A stretch of 47,393 bases of DNA from an uncultured Clostridia bacterium (GTDB lineage Bacteria; Bacillota; Clostridia; Oscillospirales; Ruminococcaceae), in the NCBI GenBank assembly GCA_947627005.1, contig CANQUJ010000015.1, forward strand, positions 1 to 47,393, written 5' to 3'. Made by a program: the position numbers and the translations under genes. Position 1 is the stretch's first letter, and each line of letters starts with the position of its first letter. Below are positions 31,058-42,221 of this stretch, in pieces. The notes beneath the pieces were generated by a model. The model saw only the letters and a list, made by a program, of their open reading frames with translations. It was not told the origin of the DNA and ran no database searches.

Positions 31058-31086
31058 TTGATATTCTTTCGCCGATATGTTATACT
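31058..31086 (+). promoter_or_regulatory. Sigma-A promoter of hydrogenase operon
   Basis: TTGATA (31058-31063), 17-base spacer, TATACT (31081-31086). A 68-base leader follows. No clear Rex palindrome was found in it. Confidence 0.75.
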
Positions 31087-31154: not shown

Positions 31155-31649
31155 ATGAAAAAACGTATCAGCACAGTCCCGTTCCGCGGAACTCCCGAGC
31201 AGGAGGCGAAGCTTAGGGCGGTAATCGAAGAAAAGAAGCATGTCGAGGGTTCGCTTATGCAGGTTATGCAGGAAGCGCAGGAGATCTACGGATACCTTCC
31301 CCTCGAAGTTCAGCAGATAATCGCCGAGGGTATGGGAGTATCGGTAGAGCAGGTATACGGCATCGCGACCTTCTATGCGCAGTTTGCCCTTTCGCCCAAG
31401 GGCGAGCACCAGATCTCGGTCTGCCTCGGAACCGCCTGCTATGTTAAGGGCTCGCAGGATATCATCGACCGCCTTACCGAAGTTTTGGGCATCGAAGCCG
31501 GCGAATGTACCCCGGACGGCAAATTCTCGCTCGAGGCCTGCCGCTGCATAGGCGCTTGCGGTCTCGCGCCGGTTATGACAGTCGGCGAAGACGTTTACGG
31601 AAGGCTTACCAAGGCGGACGTAGACACCATTTTGGCAAAATACAACTAA
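31155..31649 (+). CDS. hydC: NuoE-like [2Fe-2S] subunit HydC of NAD-linked hydrogenase
   Basis: A 164-residue thioredoxin-fold [2Fe-2S] protein of the NuoE/HydC family. The helical N-terminus has EEKKHVEGSLMQVMQEAQEI and YGYLPLEVQQII. The cluster cysteines lie in VCLGTACYVKGSQ and CRCIGACGLAPV. With HydB and HydA it forms the NAD(P)-dependent, usually electron-bifurcating [FeFe]-hydrogenase, which couples ferredoxin and NADH to H2. It is the first gene of a ten-gene operon; unusually, seven genes separate it from hydB. AAAGGAAGG precedes the ATG. Confidence 0.9.
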   Translation: MKKRISTVPFRGTPEQEAKLRAVIEEKKHVEGSLMQVMQEAQEIYGYLPLEVQQIIAEGMGVSVEQVYGIATFYAQFALSPKGEHQISVCLGTACYVKGSQDIIDRLTEVLGIEAGECTPDGKFSLEACRCIGACGLAPVMTVGEDVYGRLTKADVDTILAKYN

Positions 31650-31681
31650 TCGGAGCCGGTATCTGACAGGGGTTATATAAG

Positions 31682-32038
31682 ATGAAAATTTCCGATATTA
31701 AAACTCTGCTCGGAGCGGAAGTGGTCTGCGGCGAAGAAAACCTCGATCACGACGTATATTCGGCCTGCGGAAGCGATATGATGAGCGACGTTTTGGCATA
31801 CGTCAAGGACCAGGCGGTTCTTTTGACCGGGCTTGTTAATTCACAGGTGATCCGCACCGCAGAGATGATGGACATGGTTTGTATAGTCTTTGTCCGCTCA
31901 AAGAAGCCGACCGAAGACATGATTGAGCTTGCGCGCGAAAGCGGGATAGTTCTTATGACCACCGAAAAGCGCATGTATGAAGCTTGCGGCCTTCTTTATA
32001 AAAGCGGACTCGTCGGAAACGGGGTAAAACATGAGTGA
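31682..32038 (+). CDS. DRTGG-domain protein (first copy)
   Basis: A 118-residue protein resembling DRTGG-type domains found in clostridial hydrogenase operons. It begins MKISDIKTLLGAEVVCGEEN and contains VYSACGSDMMSDVLAYVKDQ, then LLTGLVNSQVIRTAEMMDMVCIVFV. DRTGG domains occur in regulatory contexts (for example in HPr kinase and phosphotransacetylase relatives) and are thought to bind small ligands. Its last codons overlap the start of the ATPase gene by 8 bases, indicating coupled translation. The precise role is unknown; I infer signal relay together with the neighbours. Confidence 0.75.
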   Translation: MKISDIKTLLGAEVVCGEENLDHDVYSACGSDMMSDVLAYVKDQAVLLTGLVNSQVIRTAEMMDMVCIVFVRSKKPTEDMIELARESGIVLMTTEKRMYEACGLLYKSGLVGNGVKHE

Positions 32039-32453
32039 ATCCGTAAGATTCCGCTTTAACGTAGACGGTTCTAACTTTACCACCGCGGGCCAAGCCTCGG
32101 TTCAGGTAAAAAAGAACCTGCGCGAGCTCGGGATCCCGGCGGAAGCGATCCGGCGGGTGTCCATCGCGATGTACGAGGGCGAGATCAATATGGTCATACA
32201 CGCCCACGGGGGCGAAGCCGAGGTAATCGTTTTTGAAGACAGGATAGAGATAATTCTTTCCGACCATGGCCCGGGGATCCCGAACATCGAGCTTGCGATG
32301 AAAGAGGGCTATTCCACCGCGCCGGACAATATTCGGTCTTTGGGCTTCGGCGCCGGAATGGGGCTTCCGAATATGAAGCGCTATACCGACGACATGAAGA
32401 TAGACACCGAGCTCGGAAAGGGCACCACTATAACCATGACGGTTAAGTTTTAA
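32031..32453 (+). CDS. GHKL ATPase, anti-sigma/RsbW-like
   Basis: A 140-residue stand-alone HATPase_c domain. The N box is AMYEGEINMVIHAHG (Glu and Asn of the Bergerat fold), the G1 box is LSDHGPGIPNIELAM, and the G2 region is LGFGAGMGLPNMKRYTD. There is no kinase dimerisation domain or sensor, so it is closest to the SpoIIAB/RsbW serine-kinase anti-sigma type. It overlaps the DRTGG gene upstream and precedes the HydS-like gene. It probably phosphorylates or sequesters a partner; none can be named. Confidence 0.85.
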   Translation: MSESVRFRFNVDGSNFTTAGQASVQVKKNLRELGIPAEAIRRVSIAMYEGEINMVIHAHGGEAEVIVFEDRIEIILSDHGPGIPNIELAMKEGYSTAPDNIRSLGFGAGMGLPNMKRYTDDMKIDTELGKGTTITMTVKF

Positions 32454-32486
32454 TACCTTATTATAAGCTTTTAAAACGGTGAGATT

Positions 32487-33794
32487 ATGAATACATACGA
32501 ACATTCCGTATCGCTCGACCCGTCGCGCTGCACCGGCTGCACCACCTGCATTAAAAGATGCCCGACCGAAGCGATAAGAGTCGACAACGGCAGGGCGGCC
32601 ATAAACCCCGACCGCTGCATCGACTGCGGCGAGTGCATAAGGATCTGCCCGCACCACGCGAAGGTCGCGACATGCAACAAGCTCGACCACCTTTACGACT
32701 ATAAATGGCGGATCGCCCTTCCGGCGCCGACCCTTTACGGCCAGTTCGAAGGGCTTGAAGACGTCGACTACGTTTTGCAGGGGCTTTTGGATATGGGCTT
32801 TAACGACGTCTACGAGGTTTCGCAGGCGGCCGAGATAGTTTCGGAATATACGAGGCTGTATCTTAAAACCGAGGGGATAAAAAAGCCGGTCATAAGCTCG
32901 GCCTGCCCGGTCATCGCAAGGCTTATAGCGCTTAGATTCCCCTATTTAAAAGACAATTTGCTGCCGATCCTCCCGCCGATGGAAATAGCGGCGATAGAGG
33001 CGCGAAAAAAGGCCAAGCGCGAGCACCCCGAACTTAAAGACGAAGACATCGGCGTTTGCTTTATCTCGCCCTGCCCCGCGAAGACGAGCTATGTTAAAAA
33101 CGGCTTCGGCTCGTATAAGTCGAATATCGACCTCGTCGTTTCGATGAGCGACATATACTTCTCTCTCCTCAATTTAATGAGCAGAGACAAGGCCCCGCAG
33201 CCGGTCTCAAACTCGGGAATGATCGGCATAAGCTGGGCGACCAGCGGGGGCGAGGCGACCGCGATCTTTAACGACAAATACCTTGCCGCCGATTCGATAG
33301 AAAACGTGGTCGAGATGCTCGACCAGATCGAGAACGGAACCATTCCCCCGCTCGAATTTATCGAGCTCAACGCCTGCACCGGCGGGTGCGTCGGCGGGGT
33401 TATGACCGTTGAAAACCCCTTTATCGCAAAGGCGAGACTTCAGACTTTAAGGCGGTATATGCCGGTTTCACAGAACTTTTTGGGCGAAAACGAGCGCTAT
33501 ATCCCCTCCGAATACTTCTTTGAAGACGTCCCCGACTATAAGCCGATGAACCGACTCGGAAGCTCTATAGGCGAATCTATGAAGATGATGTCGGATATAC
33601 AAAAGCTTCGGGACGAGCTTCCGGGGATAGACTGCGGCTCCTGCGGGGCGCCGAACTGCCGCGCCTTCGCCGAAGACGTAGTCAAAGGCGAGAGAAAGCT
33701 TGAAAGCTGTATAATTCGGGCGCACCGGCTTTCATGCGGAGAGCCGATTAGGCAGATAAACGATTCTCACGAAAGAAAGGCGGAGCCGATATGA
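32487..33794 (+). CDS. Divergent [FeFe]-hydrogenase-like protein (HydS/group D type)
   Basis: A 435-residue protein. The N-terminal 2[4Fe-4S] ferredoxin domain reads CTGCTTCIKRCP and CIDCGECIRICP. The H-cluster domain has ligand candidates Cys140 (SSACPV), Cys196 (SPCPAK), Cys297 and Cys301 (NACTGGCVGG). The residue before Cys140 is Ala139, where catalytic enzymes have the proton-transfer cysteine, and the L2-L3 interval is 101 residues against about 144 in HydA. The C-terminal FeS motif CGSCGAPNC (383-391) ends at Cys408. This set matches putative sensory hydrogenases such as HydS of Thermoanaerobacter. It is linked to ATPase, DRTGG and PHP genes. A role as H2 or redox sensor is inference. 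Confidence 0.85.
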   Translation: MNTYEHSVSLDPSRCTGCTTCIKRCPTEAIRVDNGRAAINPDRCIDCGECIRICPHHAKVATCNKLDHLYDYKWRIALPAPTLYGQFEGLEDVDYVLQGLLDMGFNDVYEVSQAAEIVSEYTRLYLKTEGIKKPVISSACPVIARLIALRFPYLKDNLLPILPPMEIAAIEARKKAKREHPELKDEDIGVCFISPCPAKTSYVKNGFGSYKSNIDLVVSMSDIYFSLLNLMSRDKAPQPVSNSGMIGISWATSGGEATAIFNDKYLAADSIENVVEMLDQIENGTIPPLEFIELNACTGGCVGGVMTVENPFIAKARLQTLRRYMPVSQNFLGENERYIPSEYFFEDVPDYKPMNRLGSSIGESMKMMSDIQKLRDELPGIDCGSCGAPNCRAFAEDVVKGERKLESCIIRAHRLSCGEPIRQINDSHERKAEPI

Positions 33795-34117
33795 CGGTCA
33801 AAGAGCTTGCGGAGCGCGAGGGCTTTACGCCCGTATGTCTGCCCGACCCGGAGAGGGTCATCGAGGGCGGCTACTGCGGGGACCTTTTAAGCTGGGTCAT
33901 GGGCAGGGCTAAATCGTCGCAGGCTTGGATCACCATTATGTCGAATATGAACATCGCCGCGGTGGCGACCCTTTGCGACGTAGCGGTCATCGTTCTTTCC
34001 GAAAACGTCTCGCCGGACGACGGCGTTAAAGAGACCGCCGAGGCGAGGGGGATAAACATCATAAAGACCCCGATGGCGACCTTTGAAGCCGCCGCGCTTA
34101 TCTCTTCGCTTATATGA
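33791..34117 (+). CDS. DRTGG-like protein (second copy)
   Basis: A 108-residue protein related in layout to the product at 31682: a Gly-Asp turn GGYCGDLLSWVMGRAKSSQA, then WITIMSNMNIAAVATLCDVA and VIVLSENVSPDDG. It overlaps the stop of the HydS-like gene and the start of the PHP gene, each by four bases (ATGA). The tight packing implies fixed stoichiometry or a complex. The ligand is unknown. Confidence 0.7.
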   Translation: MTVKELAEREGFTPVCLPDPERVIEGGYCGDLLSWVMGRAKSSQAWITIMSNMNIAAVATLCDVAVIVLSENVSPDDGVKETAEARGINIIKTPMATFEAAALISSLI

Positions 34118-34854
34118 GCAGATATTTCTACGACCTTCACATTCATTCCTGCCTCTCGCCCTGCGCCGACAACGATATGACCCCGGCCAACATCGCGGGG
34201 ACTGCGACCCTTGCGGGAATACAGATTATGGCGCTTACCGACCACAATTCGGTCAAAAACTGCCCGAGCTTCTTTAAAGCATGTAAAAAATACGGCGTTA
34301 TCCCGGTCGCGGGGATGGAGCTTACCACCGCCGAGGATATCCATGTCGTCTGCCTTTTTGAAGAGCTTGGCGACGCGATGGCCTTCGGCGAAGAGGTTGA
34401 TTCAAAAAGGGTGCTTATCCCGAACAAGACCGAGATATTCGGCGACCAGTTCATTATGGACGACGGCGACCGAATCATCGGGACGGAGGAAAATCTTCTT
34501 CCGAACGCGACCGAGATTTCTATCGACGAAGCGCCGAAAATTGTCGAAAAATACCGCGGGGTGTGCTACCCGGCGCATATCGACCGGCAGGCGAACGGAA
34601 TTATCGCTACCCTCGGAACCTTCCCGGACTACCCGCCGTTTAGGTGCGCAGAGCTTCACGATAAAGAAAAAATCCCGCCGCACATTGAAAAATACCCGAT
34701 TTTAAAAGACAAGCAGATAGTCATAAGCTCGGACGCGCACTATCTTTGGGATATCCGCGACGCCGACGCTTGGTTCGAGCTTGACGACGAGCCGTATTCC
34801 TCCGCTTTGGTAAGAAAAAGGCTCATAGAAAAGCTTAGGGGTGGAATAATATGA
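34114..34854 (+). CDS. PHP-domain phosphoesterase
   Basis: A 246-residue PHP (polymerase and histidinol phosphatase) domain protein. Metal motifs: YDLHIHSCLSPCADNDMTPA (HxH), ALTDHNSVKNCPSF, Glu in VAGMELTTAED, CYPAHIDRQANG, and SSDAHYLWDIRDAD. This is the trinuclear metal phosphoesterase fold; relatives cleave cyclic or oligonucleotides, AMP or sugar phosphates. Placed between a DRTGG-type protein and an ATPase in the hydrogenase operon, it may turn over a nucleotide signal; that is inference. Confidence 0.85.
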   Translation: MSRYFYDLHIHSCLSPCADNDMTPANIAGTATLAGIQIMALTDHNSVKNCPSFFKACKKYGVIPVAGMELTTAEDIHVVCLFEELGDAMAFGEEVDSKRVLIPNKTEIFGDQFIMDDGDRIIGTEENLLPNATEISIDEAPKIVEKYRGVCYPAHIDRQANGIIATLGTFPDYPPFRCAELHDKEKIPPHIEKYPILKDKQIVISSDAHYLWDIRDADAWFELDDEPYSSALVRKRLIEKLRGGII

Positions 34855-35405
34855 AAGAGCTATCTCTCAACGTTTTGGACGTTGCGAAAAATTCGGTCAA
34901 GGCGGGCGCGAAAAACGTCGGTATTAAGATAACCGAAACGGAAGAAACGCTTACCCTTTCGATTTCGGACGACGGCTGCGGAATGACCCCGGAATTTTTA
35001 AAAAACGTGACCGACCCCTTTTGCACCACAAGGACGACGAGGGCGGTCGGCCTCGGGATACCTTTATTAAAGCTTCAGGCCGAACAGACCGGCGGCTCGC
35101 TTTCAATCGAATCGAGGCATGAAAGCCTCTTCCCCGAAGACCACGGGACCACGACTACTGCCGTGTTTTATAAAAACCACATTGATATGACCCCTCTCGG
35201 GGATATCTGCGGGTCGGTGGTGACGCTTATTCAAGGCAGCCCGGATATAGACTTTTTGTTTATACACCGCTCGCCGGATTTCGACGTCAAGCTTGACACC
35301 AAAGAGCTCAGAGAGGTCTTGGGAGAGGACGTTCCTCTTGACAACGCCGAGGTTCTTATGTGGATAACCGAGAACCTTAAGGAACAATATAACCAAAGTT
35401 TGTAA
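34851..35405 (+). CDS. GHKL ATPase with C-terminal extension
   Basis: A 184-residue protein. The HATPase_c fold begins at once: LNVLDVAKNSVKAGAKNVGI (N box), ISDDGCGMTPEFLKNVTDPF (G1 box) and TTRAVGLGIPLLKLQAEQTG (G2 box). About 70 residues follow with no known domain (DMTPLGDICGSVVTLIQGSP). It lacks sensor and dimerisation domains. It overlaps the PHP gene by four bases. It is a second, distinct ATPase in the operon. Confidence 0.85.
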   Translation: MKELSLNVLDVAKNSVKAGAKNVGIKITETEETLTLSISDDGCGMTPEFLKNVTDPFCTTRTTRAVGLGIPLLKLQAEQTGGSLSIESRHESLFPEDHGTTTTAVFYKNHIDMTPLGDICGSVVTLIQGSPDIDFLFIHRSPDFDVKLDTKELREVLGEDVPLDNAEVLMWITENLKEQYNQSL

Positions 35406-35445
35406 TTTTAATTTGCATAAAACCCAATAGAAAGGAAGATATTTT

Positions 35446-35814
35446 ATGAAATCTTTAGCAGAACTCGCAGCAATCAGAGAAAAGATGAAAAACCGCGTCG
35501 TTCTTCGCGAGGGGCAGGGCGATATCCGCGTTGTAGTCGGAATGGCCACCTGCGGCATCGCAGCGGGCGCAAGGCCGGTGCTTTCGGCGTTCGTCGAGGG
35601 CGTTGCCAACGAGGGCCTTTCGGACAAGGTCACCGTCACCCAAACCGGCTGCATCGGCATCTGCCAGTACGAGCCGGTAGTCGAAGTATTTGAGAGCGGG
35701 AAAGAAAAGGTCACCTACGTTAAGATGACCGCCGACAAGGCGAAAGAGGTCATCGAGAAGCACCTTAAGGGCGGCTCCCCCGTTGTCGAATACACCATCG
35801 GCAACAATCAGTAA
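35446..35814 (+). CDS. Thioredoxin-fold (2Fe-2S) ferredoxin domain protein
   Basis: A 122-residue protein of the family often found before hydB. It contains RVVVGMATCGIAAGARPVL and VTVTQTGCIGICQYEPVVEV. Only three cysteines are visible (36, 69, 73). The fourth ligand seen in the otherwise similar N-terminus of HydB (CGGTGCTSSGS) is missing; the aligned region is CGIAAGA. It may bind an incomplete or differently ligated cluster, or none. GAAAGGAAG precedes the ATG. It is probably an electron-transfer or structural subunit of the hydrogenase. Confidence 0.8.
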   Translation: MKSLAELAAIREKMKNRVVLREGQGDIRVVVGMATCGIAAGARPVLSAFVEGVANEGLSDKVTVTQTGCIGICQYEPVVEVFESGKEKVTYVKMTADKAKEVIEKHLKGGSPVVEYTIGNNQ

Positions 35815-35845
35815 GCGAGAAAAATTTTAGGAGGTATATAAAACT

Positions 35846-37672
35846 ATGATTCGTGCACAAGTGCTGATTTGCGGAGGTACGGGCTGTACTTCTTCGGGCA
35901 GCAAAGCGATCCAGAACGCTTTTAACGAGCAGATCGAGATCGCGGGGCTTTCGGAGGAAGTAAAACTTGTCCAGACGGGCTGCTTCGGTCTATGCGCCCT
36001 CGGCCCCGTAGTAATCATCTATCCCGACGGAACATTTTATTCGAGAGTCACCCCGGACGACGTTCCCGAGATCGTTTCGGAACACCTTTTAAAGGGTAGA
36101 GTGGTCGAGCGCCTCGTATACGCCGACACCGGCGACGAAAAGGTCGAAAATGTCGCCGACGTCTCCCTTTCGGATACCGCTTTCTATAAGGCGCAGCACC
36201 GCGTAGCCCTTAGAAACTGCGGCGTTATCAACCCCGAAAACATCGACGAATACATAGCGATGGACGGCTATCAGGCCCTCGGCAAGGTTCTTACCGAGAT
36301 GACCCCGGAAGAAGTCATCGACGTCGTTCTCAAATCCGGTCTTCGCGGCCGCGGCGGCGCGGGATTCCCGACCGGCAGAAAGTGGTCGATGGCGAGGACG
36401 TTGGTCCCCGACGCAGACCAGAAATATGTCTGCTGCAACGCCGACGAGGGCGACCCGGGCGCTTTTATGGACCGCTCGGTTCTTGAAGGCGACCCCCACG
36501 CCGTTTTAGAGGCTATGGCGATAGCGGGCTATGCTATCGGCGCAAACCAGGGCTTTATCTACGTCAGAGCCGAATACCCGATCGCGGTATCGAGGCTTAA
36601 GATCGCTATTCAGCAGGCACATGAATACGGCCTTTTGGGCAAGAATATCTTCGGCACCGGCTTTGACTTCGACATCGAGCTTAGGCTCGGCGCGGGCGCT
36701 TTCGTCTGCGGAGAAGAGACCGCTTTGATGACCTCTATCGAGGGCAAGCGCGGCGAACCGAGACCGAGGCCGCCCTTCCCGGCCGTCAAGGGCCTCTTCG
36801 GCAAGCCGACTATACTCAACAACGTTGAAACCTATGCGAATATCCCCCAGATTATCCTTAAGGGCGCCGATTGGTTCGCCTCGATGGGCACCGAGAAATC
36901 TAAGGGAACCAAGGTCTTCGCCCTCGGCGGAAAGATCAAGCACACCGGCCTCGTAGAGGTACCGATGGGCACCACCCTTCGCCAGATCGTCGAAGAGATC
37001 GGCGGCGGCATCCCGAACGGAAAGAAATTCAAGGCCGCGCAGACCGGCGGCCCTTCGGGCGGATGCATCCCCGCGGAACACCTTGACGTCCCGATAGACT
37101 ATGACAACCTTATCGCGATCGGCTCGATGATGGGCTCGGGCGGACTTATCGTCATGGACGAGGACAACTGTATGGTAGATATCGCCAAGTTCTTCCTCGA
37201 ATTCACCGTCGACGAGTCCTGCGGAAAGTGCACCCCCTGCCGCGTCGGAACAAAGAGGCTTCTTGAAATGCTCACCAAGATCACCGAGGGCAAGGGCACG
37301 ATGGAAGACCTTGACGAGATGGAGCAGCTTTGCTACTACATTAAAAACAACGCCCTTTGCGGACTTGGGCAGACCGCGCCGAACCCCGTTCTTTCGACCT
37401 TAAGATACTTTAGGGACGAATACGTTGCCCATATTGTAGATAAAAAGTGCCCCGCCGGCGTTTGCAAGAAGCTTTTGACCTATAAGATCGACAAAGAAAA
37501 GTGCATCGGCTGCGGAATGTGCGCAAGACAGTGCCCTGCCTCGGCGATCGCCAAGACCGACTATACCGCCCCCGGCAAGAAGCTTCCCGCAATGGCCATA
37601 GACCCGCAGAAATGCGTAAAATGCGGCGCTTGCATGAGCACCTGCAAGTTTAAGGCAATTTCCAAGGAATAA
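35846..37672 (+). CDS. hydB: NuoF-like flavoprotein subunit HydB
   Basis: A 608-residue NADH-binding hydrogenase subunit. The N-terminal [2Fe-2S] thioredoxin-like domain (1-110) has CGGTGCTSSG and TGCFGLCALGP. The NuoF core has GLRGRGGAGFPTGRKWSMA (NADH/FMN), CNADEGDPGAFMDRSVLEGD, and CGKCTPCRVGTKRLLEM for the [4Fe-4S] cluster. Two C-terminal 4Fe-4S clusters are CIGCGMCARQCP and CVKCGACMSTCK. In bifurcating HydABC it holds the FMN where electrons split between NAD and ferredoxin. It starts 31 bases after the ferredoxin gene with AGGAGG. Confidence 0.95.
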   Translation: MIRAQVLICGGTGCTSSGSKAIQNAFNEQIEIAGLSEEVKLVQTGCFGLCALGPVVIIYPDGTFYSRVTPDDVPEIVSEHLLKGRVVERLVYADTGDEKVENVADVSLSDTAFYKAQHRVALRNCGVINPENIDEYIAMDGYQALGKVLTEMTPEEVIDVVLKSGLRGRGGAGFPTGRKWSMARTLVPDADQKYVCCNADEGDPGAFMDRSVLEGDPHAVLEAMAIAGYAIGANQGFIYVRAEYPIAVSRLKIAIQQAHEYGLLGKNIFGTGFDFDIELRLGAGAFVCGEETALMTSIEGKRGEPRPRPPFPAVKGLFGKPTILNNVETYANIPQIILKGADWFASMGTEKSKGTKVFALGGKIKHTGLVEVPMGTTLRQIVEEIGGGIPNGKKFKAAQTGGPSGGCIPAEHLDVPIDYDNLIAIGSMMGSGGLIVMDEDNCMVDIAKFFLEFTVDESCGKCTPCRVGTKRLLEMLTKITEGKGTMEDLDEMEQLCYYIKNNALCGLGQTAPNPVLSTLRYFRDEYVAHIVDKKCPAGVCKKLLTYKIDKEKCIGCGMCARQCPASAIAKTDYTAPGKKLPAMAIDPQKCVKCGACMSTCKFKAISKE

Positions 37673-37690
37673 GGAGGAAGTCGCGAAGAT

Positions 37691-39448
37691 ATGGATAAAA
37701 TGATAAATCTTAAAATAGACGGCGTGGCCGTCTCCGTGCCGGACGGCACAACGATCCTTGAAGCCGCAAGGCAGGCGGGGGTCAATATTCCCACCCTTTG
37801 CTATATGAAAGACCTCAACCAGATCGGCGCCTGCCGTATCTGCGTAGTCGAGGCCAACGAGGGCAGAGGATTTAGAACCGTAGCCTCCTGCGTATACCCC
37901 GTTACCGAGGGAATGGAGGTTAAAACCAATTCGGTAAACGTTCAGAAATCGAGAAAGACCACCCTCGAGCTTCTGCTCTCTACCCACGACAGAAAGTGCC
38001 TCTCTTGCGTTCGCTCTGACAACTGCGAATTCCAGAAGCTTTGCCGCGACTACGGAGTGGACAAAGAAGACAAGTTCGACGGTGACAAGCCGGTCTATAA
38101 GATCGACGATTCCGCCCCGCATATGATACGCGACAATAACAAGTGCGTTCTTTGCCGCAGATGCGTAGCCGCCTGCAAGGCGCAGCACGTTGCGGTCATC
38201 GGCACCAACGACAGAGGTATCGACACCAACGTTTCCTGCGGGTTCGGCCTTAATCTTGCGGATACCGGCTGCGTAAGCTGCGGACAGTGCATTATCGCCT
38301 GCCCGACCGGCGCCCTTCGCGAGAAGGACGACACCGACAAGGTGTTCGCCGCCATCAACGACCCGAACAAGGTCGTCATCGTTCAGACCGCTCCGGCAGT
38401 CCGCGCCGCCTTGGGCGAAGATTTCGGCCTTGAGATCGGCACCGGGGTCGAGGGCAAGATGGTCGCCGCGCTTCGCCGCCTCGGATTCGACAAGGTGTTC
38501 GACACCGACGTTGGCGCAGACTTCACCATCATGGAAGAAGGGACCGAGTTTATCCACCGCCTTAAAAACGGCGGGGTCCTTCCGATGATAACCTCCTGCT
38601 CGCCGGGATGGGTCAAGTTCTGCGAGACTTATCACCCCAATATGATCCCGAACCTTTCTTCCTGCAAATCCCCGCAGCAGATGTTCGGCGCTATCATCAA
38701 GACTTGGTATGCCGAAAAGAACGGAATCGACCCGAAGAACATCGTTTCGGTCTCGGTTATGCCCTGCACCGCCAAGAAGTTCGAGATCAACCGCGCCGAC
38801 CAGTCGGCCGCCGGTATCCCCGACCTTGACATTTCTATCACCACCCGCGAGCTCGCAAGAATGATCAAGAGAGCGGGCATAGACTTTGTAAACCTTCCCG
38901 ACGAGAAGTTTGACAGCCCTCTCGGCGACGGAACGGGCGCAGGCGTCATCTTCGGCACGACCGGCGGCGTTATGGAAGCCGCACTCCGTACGGTTGCCGA
39001 GGTTATGGAGGGCAAGGTCATCGAAAACGTCGACTACCACGCAGTCCGCGGAACCGACGCCATCAAGGAAGCCACCCTTAACATCGCGGGAACGGACGTA
39101 AACATCTGCGTTTGCTCCGGCCTCGAGGCTGCGCATGAGGTTCTCTGCTCTGTCGAAAACGGCGAGAAGAACTATCACTTCATCGAAATTATGTGCTGCC
39201 CCGGCGGCTGCGTAAACGGCGGCGGCCAGCCGATCCAGTCTGCGACCACAAGGGCGACCGTAGACATCAAGGCGAAGCGCGCCAAGGCGCTTTACAGCTA
39301 TGACGCCGCGAACGTCAAGCGTAAGAGCCACGAGAGCGAAGCAGTCAAGACCATTTACGGCGAGTTCTTCGGCGAGCCCGGAAGCCACAAGGCCCACGAG
39401 GTTCTTCACACCAGCTACGTCGACAGATCGAAGAGCGTTGTAAAGTAA
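37691..39448 (+). CDS. hydA: Catalytic [FeFe]-hydrogenase subunit HydA
   Basis: A 585-residue catalytic subunit. The N-terminal [2Fe-2S] domain has PTLCYMKDLNQIGACRIC. The His-ligated [4Fe-4S] is HDRKCLSCVRSDNCEFQKLC. Two 4Fe-4S sites are CVLCRRCVAACK and CVSCGQCIIACP. The H-cluster region has TSCSPGW (Cys303, Ser304), MPCTAKKF (Cys359) and MCCPGGC (Cys503, Cys507). By spacing, Ser304 sits where other enzymes have the ligand cysteine, and Cys325 (SSCKSPQQ) lies nearby. It reduces protons to H2 during fermentation. AGGAGG precedes the ATG. It is the last gene of the operon. Confidence 0.96.
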   Translation: MDKMINLKIDGVAVSVPDGTTILEAARQAGVNIPTLCYMKDLNQIGACRICVVEANEGRGFRTVASCVYPVTEGMEVKTNSVNVQKSRKTTLELLLSTHDRKCLSCVRSDNCEFQKLCRDYGVDKEDKFDGDKPVYKIDDSAPHMIRDNNKCVLCRRCVAACKAQHVAVIGTNDRGIDTNVSCGFGLNLADTGCVSCGQCIIACPTGALREKDDTDKVFAAINDPNKVVIVQTAPAVRAALGEDFGLEIGTGVEGKMVAALRRLGFDKVFDTDVGADFTIMEEGTEFIHRLKNGGVLPMITSCSPGWVKFCETYHPNMIPNLSSCKSPQQMFGAIIKTWYAEKNGIDPKNIVSVSVMPCTAKKFEINRADQSAAGIPDLDISITTRELARMIKRAGIDFVNLPDEKFDSPLGDGTGAGVIFGTTGGVMEAALRTVAEVMEGKVIENVDYHAVRGTDAIKEATLNIAGTDVNICVCSGLEAAHEVLCSVENGEKNYHFIEIMCCPGGCVNGGGQPIQSATTRATVDIKAKRAKALYSYDAANVKRKSHESEAVKTIYGEFFGEPGSHKAHEVLHTSYVDRSKSVVK

Positions 39449-40430: not shown

Positions 40431-42221
40431 TTACTCTATCGGCTCGAAGTCGGCGGCGCCGTGTTTGCAAAGCGGACAGACAAAGTCTTCGGGAAGCTCG
40501 TCGCCCTCGTATACATAGCCGCAGATCTTGCAGACCCAGCCCTTTTTGCCCTCGGTCTTGGGCTTGGGCTTGACGTTTTCGTGGTAATAAGAATAGGTCA
40601 TCGTCTCGGCGTCGGAGATCACCCTCGCCTCGGTGACCGAGCAGATGAACATTCCGTGAGTGCCGAGGTCGACATAATCCTCGACCTTCAGCGACATAAA
40701 CGCGTTGATATATCTCGGAAGGAATACGAGGCCGTTGTCGGAACGCAGAACCTCGCAGCCCGCGAATTTGTCGACCGCGCGGCCGCTTTGGAAGCCGAAA
40801 GTCTCGAACACCTTATAGGGCGCGTCGACCGAAAGGCAGCAGACGTTCATCTTTCCGGTCTGCTTGATTATGTGGTGCGAATAGTTGGCTTTGTTGATGC
40901 TCACGGCGACCCGCAGCGGGTTGTCGGTAAGCTGGCTTACGGTGTTGACGATAAGGCCGTTGTCCTTGGTGCCGTCGTTCGAGGTCACGACATAAAGCCC
41001 GTAGCCGATTTTATTCAGCGCGGTCATATCCTGCTTGTTGGCGGTCTCGCCACTCTGGGCGATGTAGTCCATGCAAAGCTCGTCCGAGAGCTCTTCGATC
41101 TGGGCGCGGCTTTCGTCGCTTAGGGCCGAGAGAATCTTTACGGTGGTCTTTGCATAGTTTATATTCTTGCAGGGCTCGAGCATAGAAAGCATAGTCTTTG
41201 CGGCGAGGGGCGCCCACGAGCCGTTCTCCATCAGCGCGACGGTGCGGTCGCGGTAGCCGCGCTCGGTCAGGTGGTTGATAAACTCGCGCATAAACGGAAA
41301 GATCTCGGCGTTGTAGGTCGTCGTCGCCAAAACGAGCTTGTTATATCTGAACGCGTCCTCGACAGCCTCGGCCATATCCTCTCTCGCGAGGTCGGCGACT
41401 ACCACCTTCGGGCAGCCCTTGGCGGTAAGCTTATCCGCCAAAAGCCGGACAGCCTCTTTGGTGTGGCCGTAGACCGAGGTGTAGGCGATCATAACCCCCT
41501 CGGATTCGGGGCGATAGGAAGACCAGATGTCGTAGAGGTTGATGTAGTGAGAAAGATTTTCGCTCAAAACCGGGCCGTGGGTCGGGCAGATGACGCTTAT
41601 GTCCAAAGTCGCGGCCTTTTGAAGAAGCTTCTGAACCTGCGCGCCGTATTTTCCGACTATGCCGATGTAGTATCTGCGCGCCTCGCAGTCCCATTCCTCT
41701 TCGACGTCGTTCGCGCCGAACTTTCCGAAGCCGTCGGCCGAGAAGAGGACCTTATCCTTTGAATCGTAGGTGACTATGACCTCGGGCCAGTGAACCATCG
41801 GGGCGGTGACGAAGGTTAGGGTGTGCTCGCCGAGGGTGAGGGTGTCCCCCTCGCCGACTGCGATTTTGCGGTCGGGGTAGTCCGTCCCGAAGAACTGCTT
41901 CATCATCGCGAAAGCCTTTGCCGAAGCGACTATCTTCGCCTCGGGGTATACGTTCATAAAGGTCGAAACGCTTCCGGCGTGATCGGGCTCCATATGCTGG
42001 ACTATGAGATAGTCGGGCTTGCGGCCGCCGAGAGCGGCGGAAACATTGTCGAGCCACTCGTGAGAAAAGCGGACGTCGACCGAGTCCATGATCGCGGTCT
42101 TAGAGTCTATGATCGCGTAGGAATTATAGGCCATGCCGTTCGGGACAACATACTGCCCCTCGAAAAGGTCGATTTCATGGTCGTTTACGCCGATATAGCG
42201 AATGTCTTCCGAAATTTTCAT
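40431..42221 (-). CDS. Flavodiiron protein with flavin-reductase and rubredoxin domains
   Basis: A 596-residue four-domain O2/NO reductase. The metallo-beta-lactamase domain (1-250) has the diiron ligands HMEPDHAG, MVHWPE and the Asp in FSADGFGKFG, plus CPTHGPV. The flavodoxin domain (about 255-395) has AYTSVYGHTKEAV. A flavin-reductase-like split barrel (about 400-545) follows. The C-terminal rubredoxin has VCKICGYVYEGDELPEDFVC and PLCKHG. Carrying its own electron chain from NAD(P)H to the diiron site is a known multi-domain variant in Clostridia. It protects oxygen-sensitive enzymes such as the hydrogenase nearby. GGAGGC precedes the ATG. Confidence 0.93.
   Translation of the reverse strand: MKISEDIRYIGVNDHEIDLFEGQYVVPNGMAYNSYAIIDSKTAIMDSVDVRFSHEWLDNVSAALGGRKPDYLIVQHMEPDHAGSVSTFMNVYPEAKIVASAKAFAMMKQFFGTDYPDRKIAVGEGDTLTLGEHTLTFVTAPMVHWPEVIVTYDSKDKVLFSADGFGKFGANDVEEEWDCEARRYYIGIVGKYGAQVQKLLQKAATLDISVICPTHGPVLSENLSHYINLYDIWSSYRPESEGVMIAYTSVYGHTKEAVRLLADKLTAKGCPKVVVADLAREDMAEAVEDAFRYNKLVLATTTYNAEIFPFMREFINHLTERGYRDRTVALMENGSWAPLAAKTMLSMLEPCKNINYAKTTVKILSALSDESRAQIEELSDELCMDYIAQSGETANKQDMTALNKIGYGLYVVTSNDGTKDNGLIVNTVSQLTDNPLRVAVSINKANYSHHIIKQTGKMNVCCLSVDAPYKVFETFGFQSGRAVDKFAGCEVLRSDNGLVFLPRYINAFMSLKVEDYVDLGTHGMFICSVTEARVISDAETMTYSYYHENVKPKPKTEGKKGWVCKICGYVYEGDELPEDFVCPLCKHGAADFEPIE

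Follow-up and report, generated by a model that had tools for sequence, protein, structure and literature searches.

Background

Genes for sensory [FeFe] hydrogenases usually lie upstream of those for trimeric bifurcating ones, often with a kinase gene in between (Carere 2012, PMC3561251). In a stretch of 47,393 nucleotides from an uncultured Clostridia bacterium of the Ruminococcaceae (contig CANQUJ010000015.1, assembly GCA_947627005.1; the whole stretch is called the window here), we analyzed a hydrogenase operon in which seven genes stand between hydC and hydB-hydA. In order, they encode a DRTGG-domain protein (DRTGG1), a SpoIIAB-like ATPase (ATP1), a putative sensory hydrogenase (HydS), a second DRTGG-domain protein (DRTGG2), a PHP-domain phosphoesterase (PHP), a histidine-kinase-like ATPase (ATP2) and a thioredoxin-fold protein (Trx). 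The first five form a cassette that recurs in fixed order in Clostridia, and the last two belong to a second unit on the hydC-hydB side.

The described system closest to HydS is the group D sensor TamHydS of Thermoanaerobacter mathranii, whose secondary structure reportedly changes with H2, whose C-terminal cluster is not reduced by H2 and whose partners were still unidentified in the account of 2026 (PMC13104023). HydS shares with it two N-terminal [4Fe-4S] clusters, an H-domain without Cys at the C299 position and a C-terminal Cx2Cx4Cx16C motif (PMC8163306, PMC10407848, PMC13104023), as well as the lack of a PAS domain, the proton-path Glu, the vicinity of a bifurcating hydrogenase and an adjacent gene for a histidine-kinase-like ATPase. 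DRTGG and PHP genes are absent from the available passages on TamHydS, whereas here the complete set of genes is presented together with its co-occurrence; furthermore, the presence of the H-cluster is uncertain in the genus of the window, where HydG and HydF were not found. Group C sensors, i.e. the HydS proteins of T. maritima and Ruminococcus albus and hfsB (PMC10055695, PMC11837493), are also hydrogenase-type sensors with a link to a second hydrogenase. In Thermoanaerobacterium, the PAS-type sensor hfsB of the hfs system comes with the serine-phosphatase-like hfsC (PMC11837493), so that a serine-phosphorylation-type gene is linked to the sensor. However, the group D cassette lacks both the PAS domain of group C and the serine phosphatase found in hfs.

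The second unit resembles the operon of Acetobacterium woodii, hydC-hydE-hydD-hydB-hydA1, whose HydE was placed outside the active enzyme and linked to 'assembly or signalling' (Poehlein 2012, PMC3315566). Both have the arrangement hydC-ATPase-small protein-hydB-hydA when compared by order and domain types, not by sequence (PMC3315566, PMC6288185); ATP2 matches HydE in position and domain type, and Trx matches HydD in position. A. woodii HydD is predicted to be without a cofactor, as expected for a Trx with three Cys. The difference is that the window has the sensor cassette between hydC and the ATPase gene. The locus tags listed by Carere (2012, PMC3561251), namely Csac_1857 with 1862-1864, Athe_1292 with 1297-1299 and Teth39_1463 with 1456-1458, are spaced in a manner that fits HydS-DRTGG2-PHP-hydC-ATP2-Trx-hydB-hydA, by count only. 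In the literature searched, which mostly left subscription papers outside it, neither DRTGG nor PHP was described in connection with these hydrogenases; a single paper (PMC10102598) mentions DRTGG and hydrogenase, once each. Thus the sensor and its neighborhood are known in outline; new relative to the literature searched are the organization into two units, the complete set as such, the association of the HydE-like ATP2 with HydS and the connection to Rnf.

Conservation of the putative sensor cassette

Taken together, the gene set is real, widespread and coherent, while its mechanism is unproven. The operon consists of ten open reading frames (ORFs), all on the plus strand and separated by at most 40 bases, and the coordinates agree with the seven genes and the overlapping junctions of 8, 4, 4 and 4 bases that the earlier sequence-only reading had described. 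A HydS search of 392 Clostridia genomes (threshold E <= 1e-40) matched 184 of them. From these, 60 loci covering 46 family codes were drawn first for spread, with gene order read through iterated profiles, and 80 publicly titled loci (the best matches of one scan), 20 loci anchored on ATP2 and 60 further HydS loci of the same hit list were added; the total is 220 loci, 202 with HydS and 18 ATP2-anchored ones without it. The 80 titled loci were chosen by their similarity to the window, and so carry little independent weight.

The five-gene cassette DRTGG1-ATP1-HydS-DRTGG2-PHP recurs in the HydS loci in this fixed order, with DRTGG1 in 198, ATP1 in 201, DRTGG2 in 197 and PHP in 191 of the 202. 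The four loci missing DRTGG1 and the one missing ATP1 all lie where the contig ends. Five loci have no DRTGG2: L140, at the end of its contig, and L223, L226, L044 and L071, the last with 1.7 kb left; the genome of L044 carries a DRTGG2-PHP pair elsewhere, 5' of hydC (L183). Of the 11 loci without PHP, four stop with the contig and seven have room for the gene (L040, L044, L050, L071, L223, L226 and L261). Over 202 loci, the order of the cassette is more than chance. No fusions joining cassette members were seen among the 60 spread loci, in which the cassette lies within hyd operons, divergent from them, or without hyd genes in view. In the titled loci, hydC stands directly upstream of DRTGG1 in 74, as in the window, where the cassette sits between hydC and ATP2; the cassette precedes hydC in 4 and 2 are incomplete. 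The neighborhood check that the sequence-only reading had asked for thus came out in its favor, as the block does recur in relatives; what changed is the unit, since the seven genes are conserved as a five-gene sensor cassette and an ATP2-Trx pair rather than as one set.

Six cassettes come from records titled Coriobacteriales, Atopobiaceae or actinobacterium (L114, L118, L129, L133, L135 and L140), with HydS 62-67% identical, through either horizontal transfer or mis-binned contigs.

The flanking genes of 120 loci were clustered, and the clusters of 20, 15, 14, 14, 10 and 5 members, checked by one to three members each, correspond in that order to a SPOR-domain protein (2/3 members), a DHODB-type electron transfer protein, DUF6062, a PRK-type kinase, RF3 and tyrosyl-tRNA synthetase. 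A recurrent DNA-binding regulator beside the cassette was not seen among the annotated flank clusters of these loci (the clusters of size 7 and of <=4 being unannotated). In 15 loci, L039 and L092 among them and all belonging to family code f10, the first or second gene after the cassette falls into the DHODB-type cluster (two members scanned), perhaps as a chance neighbor in that family. A cluster of 13 members is probably the neighboring dihydroorotate dehydrogenase, which is present in L039.

The ATP2-Trx unit and its tie to HydS

The second unit, hydC-ATP2-Trx-hydB-hydA, recurs beside the cassette or apart from it. Of these 392 genomes, 194 had an ATP2 match (profile A2, E <= 1e-25) and 310 a hydA match (E <= 1e-150). 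HydS and ATP2 were both present in 180 genomes and both absent from 194, with HydS only in 4 and ATP2 only in 14; among the 310 genomes with hydA the corresponding counts were 168, 125, 3 and 14. The association of HydS with hydA was much looser over the 392 genomes (both 171, HydS only 13, hydA only 139, neither 69). These genome-wide tables ignore kinship, and tests stratified by family and based on a tree were added. Within the 22 mixed families, of 28 family codes tabulated among hydA-positive genomes, both genes occurred in 84, HydS only in 3, ATP2 only in 13 and neither in 54 (stratified z 7.6). On a hydA tree of 75 chosen, non-random genomes, HydS presence required 14 changes, 10 of them forced by starred branches, and in 10 independent pairs ATP2 went with HydS in about 6, the opposite way in 0 and without difference in about 4 (median p 0.031).

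The ATP2-anchored loci are those where ATP2 lies away from the known place of HydS, where HydS is absent (8 of 14 such genomes), or where the place of HydS is unlisted. All 20 show hydC-ATP2-Trx-hydB, and in two (L187, L194) the cassette turned out to be adjacent. In 20 loci sampled from the 125 hydA-positive genomes with neither HydS nor ATP2, all 18 with hydC in view read hydC-hydB-hydA, with no ATP2 and no Trx, and the other two are cut. The co-occurrence of ATP2 and HydS extends to genomes where they lie apart. It could still be argued that these are co-inherited neighbors of unrelated function, given that the cassette and the hyd genes can be separate, but an order kept over 46 family codes and the co-occurrence of HydS with ATP2 even when unlinked make this very improbable.

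Loci linked to Rnf

At six loci, the cassette set, or its ATP2 part, runs into rnf genes in place of hydA. Three of these have the cassette and ATP2 followed by the rnf row (L053, L054, L080), and the other three have hydC-ATP2-Trx-hydB followed by the rnf row (L187, L190, L193). In the first three, as in L069, L075 and L077, ATP2 is the sixth gene, directly after PHP. Profile matches identify the rnf genes in L053 (rnfC 575.8 bits, rnfD 351 bits, FMN-binding and Rnf-Nqr membrane proteins), L187 (rnfC 582.7 bits and an RnfD domain) and L190 (rnfC 568.8 bits), and in L054, L080 and L193 they are assigned by gene order and length alone. The statement that the set is built into the hydrogenase operon thus holds for the window and is too narrow elsewhere, as the set also fronts rnf genes. 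HydB and RnfC, which have the Nuo51 flavin domain in common, are the shared denominator of these operons and would be the likely common target.

In L187, L190 and L193, the hydrogenase-type NADH-flavin module is joined to Rnf with no catalytic hydA in the row. At L190, ATP1, DRTGG2 and PHP stand ahead of hydC-ATP2-Trx-hydB-rnf with no HydS seen; a different sensor may serve the switch part here.

HydS and the question of its H-cluster

By its sequence, HydS qualifies as a group D (M2e) putative sensory [FeFe] hydrogenase with complete H-cluster ligands, in keeping with the sensor role first suggested for it. It combines two [4Fe-4S] domains, an H-domain (Pfam Fe_hyd_lg_C) and a C-terminal FeS domain. 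The eight N-terminal cluster cysteines and the H-cluster cysteines C140, C196, C297 and C301 are present in 203/203 HydS sequences. The C299 position is Ala139 in the window and Ala in 195/203 sequences overall, the remaining 8 having Ser, Leu, Phe or His. The C-terminal Cx2Cx4Cx16C motif comprises C383, C386, C391 and C408 in the window, each kept in at least 199 of 202 others, and HydS has no Pfam match to a PAS domain. Of the proton-path glutamates, E256 is shared by the window and 194/202 others and E293 is found in 203/203; they were equated with E252 and E289 of TamHydS by motif position.

The maturation genes do not fit this picture easily. In the genome of the window and 24 others of its genus (G000, G392-G415), the search for HydG found nothing and no HydF match exceeded the cut-off (both 0/25); HydE was not searched for. 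Both HydG and HydF were over cut-off in 9/16 other genomes of the order, and at family level HydG was found in 4/8 genomes of the class set. Across the class, 106/310 hydA-positive and 46/184 HydS-positive genomes had no HydG over cut-off; many of these are drafts, and single-contig genomes are included (G057, G290). Either the maturation genes are too divergent for the models used, or the cofactor arrives by another route, or the diiron site is missing from HydS and HydA. The failure to find HydG and HydF is the chief reason for caution about simple H2 sensing in this organism.

One explanation is that HydS senses redox state and not H2: in lineages without HydEFG it would have no cofactor other than FeS clusters and would read the state of the ferredoxin pool. 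The failure to find HydG and HydF over cut-off in the 25 genomes of the genus and the 46 HydS-positive, HydG-minus genomes point in this direction, as does the link to Rnf genes. Against this, in the 22 HydS sequences examined from these 46 HydG-minus genomes, besides that of the window, the four H-cluster cysteines and Glu293 are intact in 22/22 and Lys199 in 21/22. Moreover HydA, which needs the same cofactor, is retained in the genus, with near full-length matches in 20/25 genomes that are 48-100% identical to the HydA of the window. We assign a low probability to this explanation. Another reading of the gene set is that the ATPases, DRTGG proteins and PHP help to build or repair an FeS/flavin enzyme, HydABC or Rnf, with HydS as an assembly checkpoint. 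The set does accompany enzyme operons, and about a quarter of the HydS-positive genomes are without HydG. Yet 125/310 hydA-positive genomes do without both HydS and ATP2, which means that assembly does not generally require the set, and a sensor-type hydrogenase at the core of an assembly module would be hard to explain; such a role therefore appears improbable to us.

ATP1, the DRTGG proteins, PHP, ATP2 and Trx

ATP1 combines an ATPase fold of the SpoIIAB type with scores far below those of the family itself: 61.6 bits against spIIAB (cut-off 135) and 33.6 against RsbW (cut-off 145). The genome has its own SpoIIAB (180.9 bits), which is 32% identical to ATP1 over 100 residues. The closest solved structures to ATP1 are anti-sigma F factors (SpoIIAB; E ~8e-8), and E49, N53, D78, G80, G82 and the GFGAGMG motif, which include the ATP-binding residues and the Glu/Asn pair, are invariant in 61 rows; we take E49 and N53 to be catalytic, as in SpoIIAB. 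SpoIIAA-SpoIIAB-sigma F and RsbW are partner-switch modules, and SpoIIAB adjoins SpoIIAA. The cassette resembles such modules in its ATPase, nearest to SpoIIAB structures and with the E/N residues, and in the small alpha/beta protein next to it (DRTGG1), but differs in having DRTGG for STAS, PHP for the PP2C phosphatase, no sigma factor, and an ATP1 under the family cut-off.

The ten genes of the window have no Pfam match to DNA-binding, sigma or STAS domains, which agrees with the earlier remark that the operon has no DNA-binding protein. An anti-sigma kinase with a partner in cis was considered for ATP1 and rejected, as the ten-gene set contains neither a STAS nor a sigma gene. The single STAS gene over cut-off in the genome adjoins its own spoIIAB, as part of a group of neighboring ORFs of STAS, ATPase and putative sigma type (the last by our reading of the sequence). 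The idea that the ATPases act on anti-sigma partners is weakened by this arrangement and by the low score of ATP1. A transcriptional switch would take a related form, with ATP1 as an anti-sigma-type kinase or with a relay that ends at an unlinked regulator, so that HydS would set hyd expression. The nearest solved structure to ATP1 fits this idea, control over expression of the hydrogenase gene in the same operon is assumed for the group C HydS of T. maritima (PMC10055695), and an AraC-type regulator was reported beside TamHydS (Land 2020, PMC8163306). However, DRTGG2 lies downstream of HydS in 197/202 loci, so the reported AraC protein may be a mis-annotated DRTGG; together with the lack of sigma, STAS or DNA-binding matches, the SpoIIAB cut-off that ATP1 does not reach and the place of the STAS gene, this leaves a transcriptional switch unlikely, although an unlinked regulator may still take part.

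Both DRTGG proteins exceed the Pfam cut-off of the family, and the fold is matched for DRTGG1, whose AlphaFold model (pLDDT 91) is nearest to the DRTGG structure 2IOJ (TM 0.82), followed by a CBS/DRTGG pyrophosphatase region and HPr kinases. Asp32, Ser35, Thr49 and Gly50 of DRTGG1 are invariant in 61 rows, and Lys74 is kept in 98%; in DRTGG2, Ser34 and Thr48 are invariant. A lone DRTGG gene is also found beside hyd operons in genomes without HydS (L186, L188, L195, L207 and L211), which suggests that DRTGG proteins may have a hydrogenase-related function by themselves.

In PHP, H9, H11, D43, H44, E69, H77, H155, D207 and H209 are invariant in 57 rows, and the protein has an LSPC motif; the His, Asp and Glu residues presumably bind metal, as in the family. 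The model of PHP (pLDDT 95) is nearest to Endonuclease Q (EndoQ) and BAD_1165, with further matches to PolC, Pol III alpha, RNase AM and a C. violaceum amidohydrolase, i.e. mostly enzymes of nucleic acids or nucleotides, and no tyrosine-phosphatase-type PHP is named among the 50 structural matches listed. Judging from the model, a nucleotide is a possible substrate.

ATP2 retains the ATP-binding residues and has no Pfam match to a phospho-acceptor domain. Thioredoxin-like [2Fe-2S] ferredoxins have a four-Cys pattern. Trx has three of the four expected cysteines, and Gly stands at the second Cys position in 139/139 aligned sequences; because of this replacement, Trx is probably not a ferredoxin. 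The thioredoxin-fold ferredoxin proposed for this gene thus keeps its fold, with a Pfam match over cut-off, and probably lacks the cluster.

Proposed mechanism

The interpretation that we favor, and to which we give an even chance of being right, is that the seven genes form an accessory regulatory set, built around a group D sensor, that gives H2/ferredoxin feedback on the NADH-ferredoxin hydrogenase or, elsewhere, on Rnf. HydS would read H2, or the redox state of ferredoxin equilibrated with H2, and change its shape. This change would shift which partner the SpoIIAB-like ATP1 holds or phosphorylates; the likeliest candidates are the products of the genes that constantly flank it, DRTGG1 and HydS. 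DRTGG2 and the PHP phosphoesterase could set or reset the switch, and the signal would reach the HydE-like ATP2 for an action at the protein level on the NADH-flavin enzyme. We infer the sensing, the partner switching, the direction of flow and the protein-level output, and place them alongside the observed gene order, co-occurrence, HydS ligands and ATPase and PHP motifs. Of the complete signal path of the sequence-only reading, the conserved gene set is established, and the flow between its proteins is a proposal. A bolder version would make this a new partner-switching system with a hydrogenase-type gas sensor as its input, DRTGG in place of STAS, PHP in place of PP2C and a HydE-type ATPase gating the HydB/RnfC NADH-flavin module, and this version we regard as doubtful.

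Several observations weigh against the regulatory interpretation. In 14 genomes ATP2 is retained without HydS, and seven HydS loci with room for PHP do without it. With HydG and HydF not over cut-off in the genus, the H-cluster of HydS in this lineage is uncertain. Finally, covariation does not single out the protein pairs that the model needs. Mean-field direct coupling analysis with average product correction was applied to the 15 pairs of the six small proteins, leaving HydS out, with 136-199 paired rows; the top score lay at 6.1-8.2 in 14/15 pairs, none of which was favored. The exception, and the strongest covarying pair, is one that the model did not predict: PHP column 33 (Ala34 in the window) with Trx column 11 (Arg11), at 15.4, where K or A in PHP goes with R in Trx, and N or C with K. 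On a tree, 12 independent changes gave 9.3 agreements with this pairing and 0 disagreements, with the pair picked beforehand and the residue grouping chosen after looking, and column 33 beats 209 other columns tested against Trx column 11, the next best reaching 5.8 against 0.4. Among 130 other top-scoring pairs tested in a similar manner, several, from many protein pairs, also agree well (up to 14.6 versus 3.0, and 12.0 versus 0.8). A contact between PHP and Trx is thus a lead; it would link the cassette with the hydrogenase part of the operon.

Other features of the window

The features of the operon are collected in Table 1. Consensus sites like the possible promoter number 8 in the region, as against 5.3 (standard deviation 1.9) in shuffles, and the terminator scan found 12 where 11.9 were expected. 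A scan of the window for Rex-type operators gave 1 match with 3 mismatches, where 1.31 were expected by chance. Beside the operon, on the minus strand at 40431-42221, one protein combines an ODP beta-lactamase fold with flavodoxin, flavin reductase and rubredoxin-like domains; it is perhaps a flavodiiron-type O2 or NO reductase.

Table 1. Coordinates of the hydrogenase operon and its accessory genes in the window
Feature	Position	Strand	Basis
Possible promoter 5' of hydC	31058..31086	+	consensus match alone: 10/12, TG before second hexamer
hydC, thioredoxin-like [2Fe-2S] subunit (NuoE/HoxE type), NADH-linked [FeFe] hydrogenase	31155..31649	+	Pfam 2Fe-2S_thioredx 171.5 bits; NCBIfam HoxE/NuoE matches under their cut-offs
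DRTGG1, stand-alone DRTGG-domain protein, cassette gene 1	31682..32038	+	Pfam DRTGG 28.8 bits (cut-off 25.2)
ATP1, SpoIIAB/RsbW-like GHKL ATPase, cassette gene 2	32031..32453	+	HATPase_c_2 44.5 bits
HydS, group D (M2e) putative sensory [FeFe] hydrogenase, cassette gene 3	32487..33794	+	Pfam and cysteine pattern
DRTGG2, second DRTGG-domain protein, cassette gene 4	33791..34117	+	Pfam DRTGG 27.8 bits (cut-off 25.2)
PHP, PHP-domain phosphoesterase, cassette gene 5	34114..34854	+	Pfam PHP 43.1 bits (cut-off 26.4)
ATP2, histidine-kinase-like ATPase	34851..35405	+	HATPase_c 52.1 bits
Trx, thioredoxin-fold protein, 3 conserved Cys	35446..35814	+	2Fe-2S_thioredx 26.6 bits (cut-off 24.8)
hydB, NADH/flavin subunit (Nuo51 domain)	35846..37672	+	Complex1_51K 152.6 bits
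hydA, group A catalytic [FeFe] hydrogenase subunit	37691..39448	+	NF040763 871.9 bits (cut-off 765)

Significance

The papers of 2020 and 2026 on group D sensors leave open, in the parts available, how the signal is transduced and which partners take part (PMC8163306, PMC13104023). The gene set described here supplies candidate partners for such a sensor, namely DRTGG1, ATP1, DRTGG2, PHP and ATP2. If the proposal is true, many anaerobes (HydS is present in 184/392 Clostridia genomes) would share one switch for tuning their H2 and NADH/ferredoxin traffic, which would be relevant for H2 turnover in the gut and for engineered fermentation.

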